Below, piece by piece: positions 1-15,208 of a DNA stretch of 49,076 nt. A program made the translations under genes and the position numbers. Each line of letters begins with the position of its first letter. The first letter of the stretch is position 1. The notes under the pieces are model-generated. The model made no database searches, was not told the DNA's origin, and saw only the letters and a program-made list of their open reading frames with translations. The stretch is from Planctomycetaceae bacterium (GTDB lineage Bacteria; Planctomycetota; Planctomycetia; Planctomycetales; Planctomycetaceae), in the NCBI GenBank assembly GCA_020426325.1, contig JAGQQG010000044.1, positions 1 to 49,076 on the forward strand, in the 5' to 3' direction.

Positions 1-1115
1 CGATTGATTTCAAGACGTTCCGGCCGATCAGCTTTGGCGTGCCGTTGCTGTTGTTCGCCATCGACCAGATGGAACGCGGACGTCTGGCCACGATGGGACT
101 GTTATTCGTCGCCACGCTGACGGCCAAGGAAGATTTTGCGATCGTCATTGCCCCGCTCGGATTGTGGCTGGCGATCTCGACATGGCGGCAAGCAGAGACC
201 ACTCCTGACCGACGCCGAACGTTGATTGTCGGCGCGGTCACTGCGGTGCTGGCGACGGTCTATCTGCTGTTGGCTGTGAAGGTTTTCATCCCGTGGTTTC
301 GCAGTGGAGACACAGTCCACTACGCTCGCTATTTCAGCCGCTTCGGCGAGACGCCCACCGAAATTGTGACCAACATGATCACTCAGCCAGGACTGCTTCT
401 CGGTGAATTACTGACCACCGGCACGATCCTGTATTTCCTGCGGATCGTGGTCCCTCTCGGGGGGACTCCGTTACTTTCTCCGACTCGGTTGCTTGTTGGG
501 GGACCCCTGTTCCTGTTGTTGTGCCTCAATGAGATCGCACAATCGACGCCCGCGCCCGTGCACCATTTTCATGCTCCGCTGATTCCCATCGTGCTCTGGT
601 CTGCAGCAGCCGGGCTCCCGAATGCCCGACGGCTCATGAGTTGGATGAGGACAGACGCCATGTCAGCCGCCCGTCTGGCGTGCTGCTGTGCACTGTTCAC
701 GGGAGCGTGTCTTTCCTTTCATCCAATGTCGCTGCAGTTCTGGGATCCGGGACGATTGACCTACTGGCGGCGGTTGTACATTCCCGGGGAGCGGGCGACG
801 CAGTTCGCGAAAATCGAGTCGCTGATCCCTCTTGATGCCCGCGTGGCCTCGACGGACTTCGTACACCCCCGCTATACCCACCATGCACGCTCGTACGACT
901 ACAGCAAGTATCCCCGCAAGGTCGCGAACTATGAAGACAAGGTGCCGGATGACACCGACTACATCGTGATCGACACGCAGCACCCCTACAGTGAGATCAA
1001 GACTCCGGACCAGGTGCGTGAACTTCGCCAACATCCCGACGACTGGGAACTCCTCCCGGACGAGACAAATGGGTACTTCATCGTGCTCAAACGTCGAACA
1101 GGGAGCAGGGAATAG
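1..1115 (+). CDS. DUF2079-family membrane protein, 5'-truncated by window edge
   Basis: The frame is open from base 3, so the gene starts upstream of the window and only the C-terminal part is visible. The residues just before the first in-frame start candidate (IDFKTFRPISFG) read as protein. The sequence alternates hydrophobic membrane segments with short loops, and an early KED (LTAKEDFAIVI) fits the DUF2079 family, integral membrane proteins often grouped with glycosyltransferase-like multispan proteins. The last 100 or so residues are soluble and include a HPRYTHHARSYDYSKYPR stretch and a DYIVID core, as expected for the extracytoplasmic tail. The last codons (RRTGSRE) run into a low-complexity spacer, so the natural end may have drifted. 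Function unknown. Family assignment is from recognition, without a search. Confidence 0.7.
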   Translation, partial: IDFKTFRPISFGVPLLLFAIDQMERGRLATMGLLFVATLTAKEDFAIVIAPLGLWLAISTWRQAETTPDRRRTLIVGAVTAVLATVYLLLAVKVFIPWFRSGDTVHYARYFSRFGETPTEIVTNMITQPGLLLGELLTTGTILYFLRIVVPLGGTPLLSPTRLLVGGPLFLLLCLNEIAQSTPAPVHHFHAPLIPIVLWSAAAGLPNARRLMSWMRTDAMSAARLACCCALFTGACLSFHPMSLQFWDPGRLTYWRRLYIPGERATQFAKIESLIPLDARVASTDFVHPRYTHHARSYDYSKYPRKVANYEDKVPDDTDYIVIDTQHPYSEIKTPDQVRELRQHPDDWELLPDETNGYFIVLKRRTGSRE

Positions 1116-10093: not shown

Positions 10094-11443
10094 TCACGAC
10101 ATTGACAATGCCGGTTCGTGAGTCTGGTTGTCCAACACCTCTGCGTCAGCTTCGGTATTCGAGACAACCGCAAATTCCCGTCCGGGATGCTTCATCGCGG
10201 GAACAGGATGACTGGCCGGGTGGAATCCGGTCGCCCATTTGGCGGCGTACGCGAGAGCCGCAGCTGCGACCGAGAACACGGCCCCCATTTTCGCAGCTCC
10301 CTGGACGACCGGATCCGTGAATGCTTCTCCGGACACGAACAAGGCAACTGTCAGTCCCAGTCCGGCGACGAGACTGGTGACAAACACCTGTCGCATCGAC
10401 ATGCCATCTGGCAGTGAGAACCCAAGTCTACAGGCCAGCCAACTGCAACTCGTGATGCCCAGCATCTTCCCCATGAGCAGAGATGTGAGGATGATCCAGG
10501 TCAGCCCGTTGATCTCTGAGAACGGCACTCCTGCATTCGCGAAGGCGAAGAAGAACAGACCGAAATCAACCACTCCCTTGAGATCATGTTCAAATCGCTC
10601 CAGACAACTGTGGCTGACCGCGTGATGATTGATGTCAGGTACGTCCATGCTTGGGTTATCCTCGTACAGACCGAGGTCGGTTTTGGGGCCGGGCAAGAAC
10701 GGAACGATGAACACCAAGGCCAATGCCGGGTGCAGGTGAGCACTGTGCAACCCCCACCAGGCGAGCGTCCCACCGATCGTGATGTATGGAAGCCAGGCAC
10801 GAACCCCGAATCGTCGCAGAAGGTAAGCGGTCGTCATTCCCGGCAGAATCCAAAGGACGTTCTGCCACACGGTCGGGTGATGTGGATCGGGATAGCCGAT
10901 CGCGATGATTCCTAATCCGATGGCGTCATCTGCAACGGCCAGCAACAGCAGGAAGCTCACTGCAGGATGCTGTTTGCCAAACAGAAACCGGGCCACGAGC
11001 CACGCTAACGCAATATCCGTTGCCGTGGGCACACCCCATCCCGATTGCCAGGTCGGCATGCCCATGACCGAATTCAGACAGAGAAACACACCGATCGGTC
11101 CTAACACTCCGCCGATCGTCGCAAACAGGGGGTTGATCGCTTTGGTAACCGGATTCAACGCCCCGTTTGGTAAACAGGCTTCGGTGATCTCTTTTGCTGC
11201 GATTCCGAAGAACAGCACCATGAACAGGTCGTTTACGAGAAAGTGCAGGGTGAGAGAGTGTGCCCAGCCCTCGTCTGCGGCGGCTGAGACATGTTCGGCA
11301 TGGCTCGCTCCCCACTGGGGAATCCGAGTGTGGACGAATGAGTGATAAGCCTCCGGATCGACATTCGCAGCCACGAGAGCTGCAACAACTCCCATGATCA
11401 ATGGAACGGAGAACTCCTGGAGCCGTGCGACAGTTTTCTTCAT
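10094..11443 (-). CDS. nhaA: Na+/H+ antiporter NhaA
   Basis: Electrogenic antiporter that expels Na+ in exchange for H+. The NhaA hallmarks are present: GWGVPTATDIA at 135-145 and an Asp pair in VADDAIG (Asp172/173), corresponding to the ion-binding Asp163/164 of E. coli. About 11-12 membrane helices run through residues 12-410. The 449 residues are longer than the roughly 390 of E. coli because of an insert around residues 185-280 and a C-terminal soluble tail. No clear ribosome site precedes the ATG. The divergent aroF leader lies upstream. Confidence 0.92.
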   Translation of the reverse strand: MKKTVARLQEFSVPLIMGVVAALVAANVDPEAYHSFVHTRIPQWGASHAEHVSAAADEGWAHSLTLHFLVNDLFMVLFFGIAAKEITEACLPNGALNPVTKAINPLFATIGGVLGPIGVFLCLNSVMGMPTWQSGWGVPTATDIALAWLVARFLFGKQHPAVSFLLLLAVADDAIGLGIIAIGYPDPHHPTVWQNVLWILPGMTTAYLLRRFGVRAWLPYITIGGTLAWWGLHSAHLHPALALVFIVPFLPGPKTDLGLYEDNPSMDVPDINHHAVSHSCLERFEHDLKGVVDFGLFFFAFANAGVPFSEINGLTWIILTSLLMGKMLGITSCSWLACRLGFSLPDGMSMRQVFVTSLVAGLGLTVALFVSGEAFTDPVVQGAAKMGAVFSVAAAALAYAAKWATGFHPASHPVPAMKHPGREFAVVSNTEADAEVLDNQTHEPALSMS

Positions 11444-11782
11444 GGGGAAACCTGTTGGAGAAACAGAGCGAGAGAACTGAACCTCGAACGAGGACAGCGG
11501 TCTCTGATCGATGTGAAGGCCGGAAACTTGCGTCGTTTTGATCAGTCACCACGACATTTCGGATCACAGCGACTTGAAGGAACGGTCCTGTCGGTTGTTC
11601 CGAACATGCCGTCCACGAAAATGCACGGAGCAGATGGACTGAATCATGATCAACTATTCGTCCGAACTAAGCAGGATCAGCGGGCCATTCTGATTAGTGA
11701 CGCATCGAAGATGCGGCCCCCCTCTGAGCATGTCATCCCAGAATGAAACAAACATCGGCCCTGCTGTCGTGCCGCTTGCCAA

Positions 11783-11811
11783 TTGACGGACGAGTCTGCC
11801 CGGCGTACGAT
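11783..11811 (+). promoter_or_regulatory. predicted sigma-70-type promoter for aroF leader
   Basis: TTGACG (11783-11788), 17 nt spacer, TACGAT (11806-11811). This is a near-consensus arrangement and would start RNA around 11818, giving a leader of roughly 255 nt before aroF. Confidence 0.6.
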
Positions 11812-11865
11812 GAATTTCACATTTTTGATCGTTCATCGATCCTGACTATCCGTTGATGTAATTCG

Positions 11866-11961
11866 ATGACCCCGTCCCGAAGCTTTACCGGTCGAGATTG
11901 GTTTCGTTTCTGGTCCTTGACGACCAGAACGGGATTCCTGTGCCGAGGGGCAGCCGACTGA
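11866..11961 (+). CDS. candidate aroF attenuator leader peptide (31 aa)
   Basis: Short frame from ATG 11866 to TGA 11959-11961, between the predicted promoter and the terminator hairpin. Of 31 codons, two are Trp and four are Phe, with five aromatic-region codons in a row reading W-F-R-F-W at 11899-11913 (context DWFRFWS). The Trp codon at 11911 sits inside a perfect 8-bp hairpin (TTCTGGTC 11908-11915 with GACCAGAA 11922-11929). The stop falls 25 nt before the terminator stem. This is the architecture of ribosome-stalling leader peptides for aromatic amino-acid genes. No Shine-Dalgarno sequence is obvious, so translation is inferred. Confidence 0.55.
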   Translation: MTPSRSFTGRDWFRFWSLTTRTGFLCRGAAD

Positions 11962-11985
11962 GACGTTGGCGAATACGAAACACCT

Positions 11986-12025
11986 CAGGCCCTGAAATCC
12001 CGGAGATTTCAGGGCCTGTTTTCTT
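11986..12025 (+). terminator. intrinsic terminator in aroF leader (probable attenuator)
   Basis: Perfect 14-bp stem (CAGGCCCTGAAATC 11986-11999, complement 12005-12018) with a five-base loop, followed by TTTTCTTCTC. The T-run is on the forward side only, so it acts on forward transcripts. No complete upstream forward gene exists (nhaA runs away from it) and aroF starts 55 nt later, so it would stop aroF transcription itself unless relieved. A competing pairing is possible: 11931-11940 (GGGATTCCTG) can pair with both edges of the 5' arm (CAGG 11986-11989 and AATCCC 11996-12001), leaving six bases bulged. Confidence 0.75.
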
Positions 12026-12072
12026 CTCACATCTCTTGTATTTGGAATCACACCCAGCCTCGGAGTACAACC

Positions 12073-13086
12073 ATGATCGTCGTGATGAAGTCAGGCACCA
12101 GCGAGGATAAGGTGCAAAGTATGGTCGAACGCATCGAAGCCATGGGGCTGAAGGCTCACGTGATCGTCGGAACTGAGCGGACGGTCGTGGCGGCAATTGG
12201 CGAGAAACGGGATGGTAACCGGGAGACGCTGGAATCCCACGAAGATGTCGAAAAGGTCGTGCCTATTCTGGCTCCCTACAAGGTCGCGAGTCGAGAGGCC
12301 AAAACTGAGCCCACGACAGTCGAAGTGCTCGACCTGAAGGTCGGTGGCGGACATATCGGCATCATGGCGGGACCTTGCTCAGTCGAAAGTGAGGAGCAAA
12401 TCCTTTCAATCGCCCGGGCTGTGAAAGCAGCGGGGGCGAAGGGCCTGCGTGGCGGAGCGTTCAAGCCTCGGACCAGCCCGTATTCATTCCAGGGGATGAA
12501 AGAAGACGGACTCAAACTCCTGGCAGCGGCACGCGACGAAACGGGACTGGCCGTCGTGACCGAGGTGATGACTCCCGAGCATGTGGAACTCGTCGGCAAG
12601 TACGCGGACGTGCTGCAGATCGGTGCCCGCAATATGCAGAATTATCATCTCTTGCAGGCAGTCGGTGAGTCCAACAAAGCAGTCCTGCTCAAGCGGGGGC
12701 CTTCCGCGACGATGGACGAGTTCCTGCTGGCCGCTGAATATATTCTGGATCAGGGGAACCAGCAGGTCATCCTCTGCGAGCGAGGCATCCGCACATTCGA
12801 AACTCACACCCGCTTCACTCTGCCACTGGCCTCGGTCCCCTACCTGAAGGAGAGGACCCACTTGCCGATCGTGATCGATCCCAGCCACGGGACGGGGATT
12901 GCATCACTGGTTCCCCCCATGTGCACTGCCTCGATTGCTGCCGGAGCTGACGGACTCATTGTCGAAGTCCACCCCGACCCGCCGAATGCCGCGAGCGATG
13001 GAGCTCAGTCACTCACTCCGAAAGCCTTTTCTGCGGCCATGGATCAGTGTCGCAAGGTTGCAGCAGCACTCGGATACGAGATGTGA
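12073..13086 (+). CDS. aroF: 3-deoxy-7-phosphoheptulonate synthase (DAHP synthase), type I beta with N-terminal regulatory domain
   Basis: First enzyme of the shikimate pathway: condenses phosphoenolpyruvate and erythrose-4-phosphate. 337 residues. Residues 1-70 form a ferredoxin-like domain ([15 protein letters not shown]), as in the Thermotoga enzyme, where it mediates feedback inhibition by Phe/Tyr. The barrel follows with AGPCSVES (metal Cys102), [38 protein letters not shown] and DPSHGTG (metal His). All metal and phosphate ligands I can place are intact. CTCGGAG eight bases before ATG 12073 supports the start. The long leader carries a probable attenuator, so both transcription and activity could respond to aromatic amino acids. 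Confidence 0.94.
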
Positions 13087-14081: not shown

Positions 14082-14110
14082 TGAATAATGAGATGTTGAG
14101 GAGTTCGCCT

Positions 14111-14590
14111 GTGAGCAAATCGTTCATGGCAAGAAAAGAAACGTTCCAGCCCGAGTGGTTCGTGGTGGATGGCGACAATCAGGTTGTCGGCCGTCTGGCA
14201 ACCCGTCTCGCGACCGTCCTGATGGGCAAGCACAAACCAACTTACACGGCACACGTCGACACGGGTGACTTCGTGGTTGTCGTGAATGCCGATAAGGTTC
14301 GATTCTCGGGCCAGCCCTTGGCACATGACACGCATCCTTATTTCACGAAAAAGATGCTGACCAGAACCTACGAACGGTACAGCGGTTATCCGAGTGGTCG
14401 CACAGTGGAAACAGCTGCAGACCTGCTGGAGAAGAAGCCCGAAAAGATTCTTCGAGAAGCCGTCCGTCGAATGCTGCCGAAGAACAAACTCGGACGTCAG
14501 ATGCTGAACAAATTGAAACTGTATGCTGGCCCCAATCATCCGCATCAGGCGCAAGAGCCTGTTGAGATGCCTGCACACCTACTCGCCTGA
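14111..14590 (+). CDS. rplM: 50S ribosomal protein L13
   Basis: Large-subunit protein that binds 23S rRNA early in assembly. Recognisable blocks are WFVVDGDNQVVGRLATRLA, LMGKHKPTYTAHVDTGDFV, VNADKVRFSG, YSGYPSGR and GMLPK-like RRMLPKNKLGRQML ending KLYAG. GAGGAG at 14098-14103 lies seven bases before GTG 14111, making this the preferred start (159 residues). ATG 14126 is the alternative. It forms the conserved rplM-rpsI pair with the next gene, 48 nt downstream. Confidence 0.95.
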   Translation: MSKSFMARKETFQPEWFVVDGDNQVVGRLATRLATVLMGKHKPTYTAHVDTGDFVVVVNADKVRFSGQPLAHDTHPYFTKKMLTRTYERYSGYPSGRTVETAADLLEKKPEKILREAVRRMLPKNKLGRQMLNKLKLYAGPNHPHQAQEPVEMPAHLLA

Positions 14591-14638
14591 CGGTCTCCGC
14601 TGCCCGACCTGATTTAATACGTATCCCCAGAGTCACTG

Positions 14639-15208
14639 ATGACAGACGAAACGCAGAATCCAGAAGAAGAACAAGTTTCAGAAGACGTCGCGTCCACTGA
14701 GGTGGAGACTGTCGACTCGGCTGAGACTGTAGATCAGCCGCTGCTTGATATCGGCTCACACAATGATGGTGACGACGCCGGAAGTGCTCATGCGCCTCTG
14801 ATTCGTGGTCGAGTCGACAAGCATGGCGTCGCGATGGGAACAGGTCGGCGGAAGACGTCTGTTGCCCGAGTTCGGATTTCCGATGGCAATGGCAAGCTGA
14901 CGATCAACGGTCGTGAGTTTACCGAGTATTTCCCCCAGGAACGCGATCAGAAAATGATTCAGGCTCCCCTGAAAGCGACGGGGACGTTGGGGAACCTGGA
15001 TATTTGGGTTCGTGTGAACGGCGGGGGAACCACCGGTCAAACTGGAGCCGTGCTCTTGGGCATCGCCCGTGCCCTGCAGGTCAAAAATCCCGAACTCCAC
15101 GGGAAGCTCAGCGAAGGTGGATATCTCACTCGTGATGGCCGCATGGTCGAACGCAAGAAGTACGGCTTCCGCAAAGCACGCCGGAGCTTTCAGTTCTCCA
15201 AGCGATGA
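14639..15208 (+). CDS. rpsI: 30S ribosomal protein S9 with acidic N-terminal extension
   Basis: 189 residues against about 130 in most bacteria. The S9 core begins near residue 65 (GVAMGTGRRKTSVARVRI) and ends with the basic tail KKYGFRKARRSFQFSKR, which reaches the P-site tRNA. The family's usual C-terminal end is KR, present here. The first 60 residues are strongly acidic (Glu/Asp/Thr/Ser-rich, few basic residues) and probably disordered. An internal start at the core is not supported by a ribosome site, so the extension is likely translated. A terminator follows the gene. Confidence 0.95.
   Translation: MTDETQNPEEEQVSEDVASTEVETVDSAETVDQPLLDIGSHNDGDDAGSAHAPLIRGRVDKHGVAMGTGRRKTSVARVRISDGNGKLTINGREFTEYFPQERDQKMIQAPLKATGTLGNLDIWVRVNGGGTTGQTGAVLLGIARALQVKNPELHGKLSEGGYLTRDGRMVERKKYGFRKARRSFQFSKR

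Follow-up and report, generated by a model that had tools for sequence, protein, structure and literature searches.

Organization of the aroF locus

We analysed a 49,076-nt stretch of DNA from a Planctomycetaceae bacterium (assembly GCA_020426325.1, contig JAGQQG010000044.1, forward strand), the whole of which is referred to as the window. It encodes AroF, a DAHP synthase that carries a ferredoxin-like domain and has 4grs, 1rzm and 1vr6 as best solved chains; DAHP synthase catalyses the first step in the synthesis of aromatic amino acids. Its neighbour upstream, a Na+/H+ antiporter gene, is divergent and lies on the minus strand, which leaves no evident upstream gene for the terminator before aroF to end, and a plus-strand frame upstream of aroF (11342-11746) had no Pfam match. 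Downstream, a minus-strand frame matches DUF3467. The aroF gene probably forms a transcription unit by itself, since the next larger downstream frame with a family match is on the minus strand. Genes for ribosomal proteins L13 and S9 are found downstream on the plus strand (window positions 14093-15208). The same genome holds a second AroF paralogue (L002, contig C166), 53% identical to the first, which has no aromatic leader and is preceded by a frame that by eye resembles the C-terminus of PheA.

The preliminary description of the region in front of aroF had listed a promoter, a 31-codon frame with a W-F-R-F-W run, an 8-bp hairpin, a 14-bp terminator with a U-run and then aroF, all of which proved correct base for base (Table 1). 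The two Trp codons of the frame are W12 (11899-11901) and W16 (11911-11913), and hairpin 1 overlaps the codons for F15, W16 and part of S17. The leader stop codon falls in the loop of a 6-bp hairpin that itself sits inside the antiterminator loop. No clear Shine-Dalgarno sequence was seen by eye upstream of the leader ATG. A further pairing of the ribosome-free fold, GUUUCGU with ACGAAAC (11901-11907 with 11975-11981), was dropped, as by eye it is not kept in the closest relatives.

Table 1 Features of the aroF leader and gene in the window.
Feature	Position	Strand	Evidence
Sigma-70-like promoter of the leader transcript, TTGACG-N17-TACGAT	11783-11811	+	Scan; same site type in relatives
Leader peptide frame, 31 codons (ATG at 11866) plus TGA (11959-11961), translated as MTPSRSFTGRDWFRFWSLTTRTGFLCRGAAD	11866-11961	+	Translation; equivalent frames in relatives
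Regulatory codons W12 F13 R14 F15 W16	11899-11913	+	Translation
Hairpin 1, 8 bp, TTCTGGTC (11908-11915) with GACCAGAA (11922-11929)	11908-11929	+	Pairing in five close relatives
Antiterminator 5' arm	11930-11948	+	Folding; matched versus mismatched duplex comparison
6-bp hairpin, 11953-11958 with 11965-11970	11953-11970	+	Folding; covariation
Antiterminator 3' arm, overlapping the terminator 5' arm	11983-12002	+	Folding; duplex comparison
Intrinsic terminator, perfect 14-bp stem (11986-11999 with 12005-12018), then U-run; TTTTCTTC behind the stem (11986-12018)	11986-12026	+	Scan, folding
aroF, type I-beta DAHP synthase with FXD domain	12073-13086	+	PF00793, PF18152, NF006421

In a crude scan of 2.5 kb of the window alone, the counts were one promoter-like site (0.9 expected) and two terminator-like sites (1.6 expected). 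Of shuffled regions, 13% contain a frame with four or more aromatic residues (W, F or Y) in eight codons. By itself, the window leader is weak and only suggestive evidence for attenuation, and it is the relatives that decide.

Conservation of the leader among AroF relatives

One scan of named genome contigs found 117 AroF relatives, 80 of which were kept. Whole-genome searches detected AroF in 219 of the 294 phylum genomes at E up to 1e-60 and in 236 of the 297 class genomes at E up to 1e-100. We compiled 201 upstream regions, comprising the window, the 80 named loci and 120 regions from the whole-genome searches, the last hand-picked at about one per genus among the matches listed. Removal of four regions with less than 250 nt upstream left 197, and removal of 21 near-duplicates left 176. 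Four of these loci lie outside the phylum by record title (L077, L079, L080 and L082), and none of them carries the arrangement described below. One locus, L072, is on a contig titled as a Candidatus Nealsonbacteria MAG; its aroF is planctomycete-like (69% identical), the predicted attenuator is present and the record may be misassigned.

Each region was searched for a small frame with at least four W, F or Y in eight codons, followed by a terminator, upstream of aroF. This combination was present in 113 of 176 regions compared to 8 of 880 shuffles and none of 176 reverse strands, a frequency that is no unbiased census, because 120 regions were hand-picked among the matches listed, and that is probably a floor, because the 63 regions without the combination include the probable cases L006 (a shorter run) and L036 and L038 (a terminator tail that starts with A). 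Raising the threshold to at least five aromatic residues left 96 regions, with no shuffle and no reverse strand, while the frame alone, with at least five W, F or Y in eight consecutive codons, was found in 101 of 176 regions; dinucleotide shuffles contained it in 1.9% of cases, and reverse strands in 2 of 176. A promoter of the form TTGACN-16..18-TANNNT preceded the aromatic run at 39 of the 113 attenuator loci against 0.42 expected. Conservation in relatives thus places the leader architecture far above chance. Loss of the aromatic frame with retention of the terminator, the pattern that the preliminary description had set against its own reading, characterized a minority of regions: 25 of the 138 with a terminator had no qualifying aromatic frame before it.

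Amino acids encoded by the leader

In the best 8-codon windows, 69% of in-frame codons specified W, F or Y, a value biased upward by the selection of these windows for aromatic content; the two remaining frames gave 14% and 17%. Both Phe codons (227 TTT and 70 TTC) and both Tyr codons (110 TAT and 71 TAC) were used, which indicates that amino acids rather than bases are conserved in the run. All 113 leader peptides contained F, 108 contained Y and 96 contained W; eight of ten Pirellula-like leaders examined had no W. Trp and Phe had been put forward as the sensed residues; they are the aromatic residues of the run in the window, and in the relatives the set predicted to be sensed widens to W, F and Y. 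The pathway that aroF begins leads to these three amino acids, and the mixture fits a DAHP synthase common to all three aromatic pathways. At some loci the RNA itself appears to be under selection, as the nucleotide motif CCGGGATTTCCGGG is translated in different frames in L012 and L007. The leaders of anammox bacteria (L194, L195, L196 and L199) have a short F/Y-rich run (e.g. FYYFRYY) and a terminator of only 10-11 bp.

Covariation and geometry of the antiterminator

We compared duplex energies between the leader sequence following the onset of the aromatic run and either its own terminator 5' arm or the arms of other loci. Across the 113 leaders, pairing with the own arm averaged −19.9 kcal/mol and with other loci's arms −16.1 kcal/mol (0 of 5000 permutations), and the difference was retained in 66 leaders with dissimilar peptides (−19.4 versus −15.7 kcal/mol, 0 of 5000). 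The terminator 3' arm, used as a control, was slightly better than chance in the 113 leaders (−13.0 versus −12.5 kcal/mol, 28 of 5000) and gave −12.6 versus −12.2 kcal/mol in the 66 (246 of 5000). Within groups, the own-arm signal was found in families f1 (12 loci) and f2 (10 loci) and in the named loci (51), with 0 of 5000 permutations each, and was absent within the nine loci of f93, Isosphaeraceae (1792 of 5000). That the leader segment pairs far better with its own terminator arm indicates that the antiterminator is maintained by compensatory change. Examples are GGATTTC.GGG opposite CCCTGAAATC in several Planctomycetaceae, AGGTTACC opposite GGCCCTGTAACC in the Gimesia-titled L018 and GGCTTCGGGGCC opposite GGCCCTGAAGTC in L016. 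The trp/phe-like attenuation first suggested for the window thereby gains support: in the aroF leaders of relatives the W, F and also Y codons are kept, their frame recurs, and the alternative stems co-vary through compensatory changes.

The position of the antiterminator was also constrained. Its start lay a median of 32 nt from the first aromatic codon (10-90% range 23-43), and in medians the arm started 9 nt past the end of the run, while its own end preceded that of the stop codon by 8 nt. In 97 of 113 leaders, and in 54 of 66 of the reduced set, the terminator 5' arm had its best partner between aromatic run and stop; this zone takes up 24% of the searched stretch on average. The ribosome was assumed to cover positions −15 to +13 relative to the A site. 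Placed at the first aromatic codon, it left the paired bases of the antiterminator arm all free in 108 of 113 leaders; placed at the last, it covered no more than a quarter of the arm in 94 of 113.

These observations bear on an explanation in which the terminator is constitutive or otherwise controlled and the small frame either encodes a functional aromatic-rich peptide or is incidental. The 25 terminator-bearing regions without the frame would be expected in that case; the co-variation of the leader segment with the terminator arm and the steady distance between run and antiterminator would not. The likeness of the peptides across clades in their aromatic run and in little else also speaks against this explanation, which we regard as very improbable.

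Folding of the window leader

With a ribosome at W12 or W16 and the RNA made to 12002, the minimum-energy fold joins 11930-11936 to 11996-12002 and, across one bulge, 11942-11948 to 11983-11990; two isolated pairs lie between these helices. The antiterminator of the preliminary description is thus recovered in the fold, and its extent of 11931-11940 with 11986-12001 proved too short, being 11930-11948 with 11983-12002. With a ribosome at the stop, the terminator alone forms. Antiterminator alone and terminator have predicted energies of −19.6 and −25.4 kcal/mol, respectively, and as soon as the RNA includes the terminator 3' arm, the terminator prevails in all states that were folded, so that read-through must depend on timing, as it does in known attenuators. 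The antiterminator also forms in the ribosome-free state, as long as the RNA stops short of the terminator 3' arm; an untranslated leader may therefore read through, and hairpin 1 does not mask the antiterminator arm in the fold model. The antiterminators of the f44 leaders were weak (−10.8 to −14.1 kcal/mol).

The prediction that a ribosome at the stop covers the antiterminator segment holds in the window fold, and across the 113 leaders at least half of the arm was covered with the stop codon in the A site in only 47, so melting by the passing ribosome must contribute. A trans-acting RNA-binding protein, or Rho, whose access is influenced by leader translation, would be another route to attenuation. 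U-run intrinsic terminators stand directly behind the frames, and two mutually exclusive RNA structures account for the pattern without further factors, which makes this the least probable of the alternatives that we considered.

Accessory hairpins

Hairpin 1, proposed as the first hairpin of the attenuator, stays 100% paired among five close relatives; one of its pairs differs there on both sides, and its covariation score was reached by 59 of 500 shuffles. Across the phylum the corresponding signal was slight: in 62 leaders, base pairing between run region and antiterminator arm showed an effect of −0.9 kcal/mol (37 of 5000 permutations), four of the 66 having been set aside with an antiterminator arm less than 12 nt from the run. 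A protector pairing of general occurrence thus appears weakly supported, and hairpin 1 may act as a pause hairpin. In the same five relatives the stop-codon hairpin is 93% paired, with two pairs changed on both sides in L005 and a covariation score reached by 16 of 500 shuffles. The terminator is invariant among these relatives, which are therefore uninformative on it.

Proposed mechanism

We propose, with a probability of roughly 0.88 as judged from the sequence comparisons, that the aroF leader is a ribosome-mediated transcription attenuator. RNA polymerase would start near 11818, with a ribosome following on the leader frame. When charged tRNA-Trp or tRNA-Phe (in relatives also tRNA-Tyr) is short, the ribosome would stall at 11899-11913 and leave 11930-11948 free to pair with the emerging 11983-12002, by which the terminator would be blocked and aroF transcribed. 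When aromatic amino acids are plentiful, the ribosome would reach the stop at 11959 and cover or melt 11930-11948, and the terminator (11986-12018) would then end the RNA after about 200 nt. The leader parts, their conservation and the co-varying pairing are direct observations; the start site is a prediction, and ribosome stalling, read-through and the response to amino acids are what these parts would be predicted to produce.

Comparison with known leaders

T-box leaders report aminoacyl-tRNA supply by binding tRNA directly, without a leader peptide. A metabolite- or tRNA-binding leader of this kind (riboswitch or T-box) could use the same terminator with the frame idle, and a T-box (RF00230) indeed precedes aroF in a Firmicute relative, L082 (Alicyclobacillaceae, positions 968-1204, 103 bits), as a different aminoacyl-tRNA sensor. 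In the window, however, no Rfam 15 family, Trp_leader and Phe_leader included, matched at gathering score and nothing relevant at a relaxed threshold; a search of 12 further loci (nine of them planctomycete loci with the element) gave the T-box of L082 as its single match, so that RF00230 was unmatched in the planctomycete loci tested. The in-frame enrichment of W, F and Y would also have no role in such a leader, and we rate this explanation as even less probable than a constitutive terminator. T-box-like motifs were seen by eye in L079 (Pelotomaculum), with no Rfam match at gathering score.

The proposed ribosome-mediated attenuator shares with the enterobacterial trp and pheA attenuators its regulatory codons, the alternative antiterminator and terminator hairpins and a biosynthetic gene downstream. 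Those attenuators mostly have single-amino-acid runs and a firm 1:2 protector hairpin, whereas the planctomycete leader has mixed aromatics and a weakly conserved protector. Two further aroF leaders, the closest in the literature searched and one of them from the actinobacterium Corynebacterium glutamicum, were set beside the planctomycete leader by their descriptions. The aroR-aroF leader of C. glutamicum is reported as a site of ribosome-mediated attenuation (Neshat et al. 2014, cited in PMC7356990); in the passages of PMC7356990 it likewise has a leader peptide before a DAHP synthase gene and phenylalanine control, but phenylalanine is the one effector named there and its control is called translational, whereas the planctomycete leaders mix W, F and Y before a terminator. 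The uORFC-13-1 motif upstream of aroF, with 24 representatives in Acholeplasma and environmental sequences, is similar in that a predicted upstream frame with Phe codons stands beside an apparent intrinsic terminator, and differs in its at least one Phe codon and its restriction to Acholeplasma and environmental sequences, as described in the passages of PMC8632094, the main text of which does not contain the string 'planctomyce'. The preliminary description knew of no established planctomycete example, and no report of an amino-acid attenuator in Planctomycetota was found in the open-licence literature searched: passages of PMC4833913 tally planctomycete leader genes by distance and lack the word 'aromatic', and PMC12125101, as far as its passages go, concerns C. 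glutamicum. The aroF leader is thus predicted to be a new, widespread and well-supported occurrence in planctomycetes of a known mechanism, ribosome-mediated attenuation.

Distribution across Planctomycetota

The predicted attenuator occurs in Planctomycetaceae, Isosphaeraceae, Lacipirellulaceae and anammox bacteria. Frame and terminator were found together in 51 of 75 named loci and, by family code, in 12/16 regions of f1, 10/18 of f2, 9/13 of f93, 4/10 of f94, 5/5 of f100, 4/4 of f3, 3/3 of f103, 4/4 of f44, 2/2 of f58 and 1/2 of f65, as well as in the single regions of f33, f66, f92, f96, f99, f102, f106 and f109. They were found in none of the regions of f49 (1), f51 (2), f75 (2), f76 (3), f95 (1), f97 (1), f98 (1), f101 (1), f104 (2) and f105 (2). 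The f1 family (Planctomycetaceae) includes Thalassoglobus neptunius (L087, near-identical to L010), and f100 (Lacipirellulaceae) includes Botrimarina colliarenosi (L166, near-identical to L083). We identified f93 as Isosphaeraceae because it contains Singulisphaera acidiphila DSM 18658 (L148), which has the attenuator, and Aquisphaera giovannonii (L149), which has the terminator and no frame at the threshold used. Similarly, f44 was identified as anammox bacteria because hydrazine synthase (PF18582) was present in all seven f44 genomes tested, including four with the leader, compared to none of 14 control genomes.

Four loci of f94, by elimination probably Gemmataceae, carry the attenuator. 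No aromatic leader was found at 16 divergent aroF loci of 12 f94 genomes (AroF 49-52% identical to the query; eight further matches were left out of this examination), and the sole frame over threshold among them, at L213, was rejected since by eye it reads like a PheA C-terminus. The attenuator was not found in Stieleria (L055) and Roseiconus (L054), nor upstream of aroF in a Planctomyces- and Kuenenia-titled group (L024, L029, L031, L032, L035, L043 and L056). In this group a different conserved frame stops some 77-177 nt ahead of aroF, which has perhaps joined another transcription unit.

Other biosynthetic genes had no shared attenuator, as assessed at trpE-type genes (20 loci in 15 genomes) and at the hisG and ilvB genes of the window's own genome. 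One frame with at least two W in eight codons was found at 6 of the 20 trpE-type loci (L228, L230, L232, L237, L238 and L239), of which L228 and L238 also reach four aromatics; the six frames are mutually unlike. The own trpE-type locus (L225) had no frame with at least two W in eight codons, and own hisG and own ilvB (396 nt upstream) had no leader at the thresholds used.

Implications for transcription-translation coupling

Ribosome-mediated attenuation needs a ribosome close behind RNA polymerase, and since it works only with the ribosome trailing closely, an attenuator under selection is a natural readout of coupling. In Gemmata obscuriglobus, separation of transcription and translation has been reported (passages of PMC5394234 and PMC6212462, both citing Gottshall et al. 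2014). The attenuator has no direct bearing on Gemmata, as the probable Gemmata-type divergent loci are without the element. Within the lineages that carry it, we lean towards the view that aroF in Planctomycetota has long been regulated by an attenuator reading all three aromatic amino acids, which has been kept by compensatory change and constitutes evolutionary evidence for physical coupling. If so, it would have been kept from Planctomycetaceae and Isosphaeraceae to anammox bacteria, and its selection in many planctomycete lineages would be indirect evidence for coupling in those lineages. The aroF leader is also a candidate RNA family for annotation. It is present in the isolates Singulisphaera acidiphila DSM 18658, Thalassoglobus neptunius KOR42 and Botrimarina colliarenosi Pla108, where the attenuator would be a ready-made reporter of coupling.
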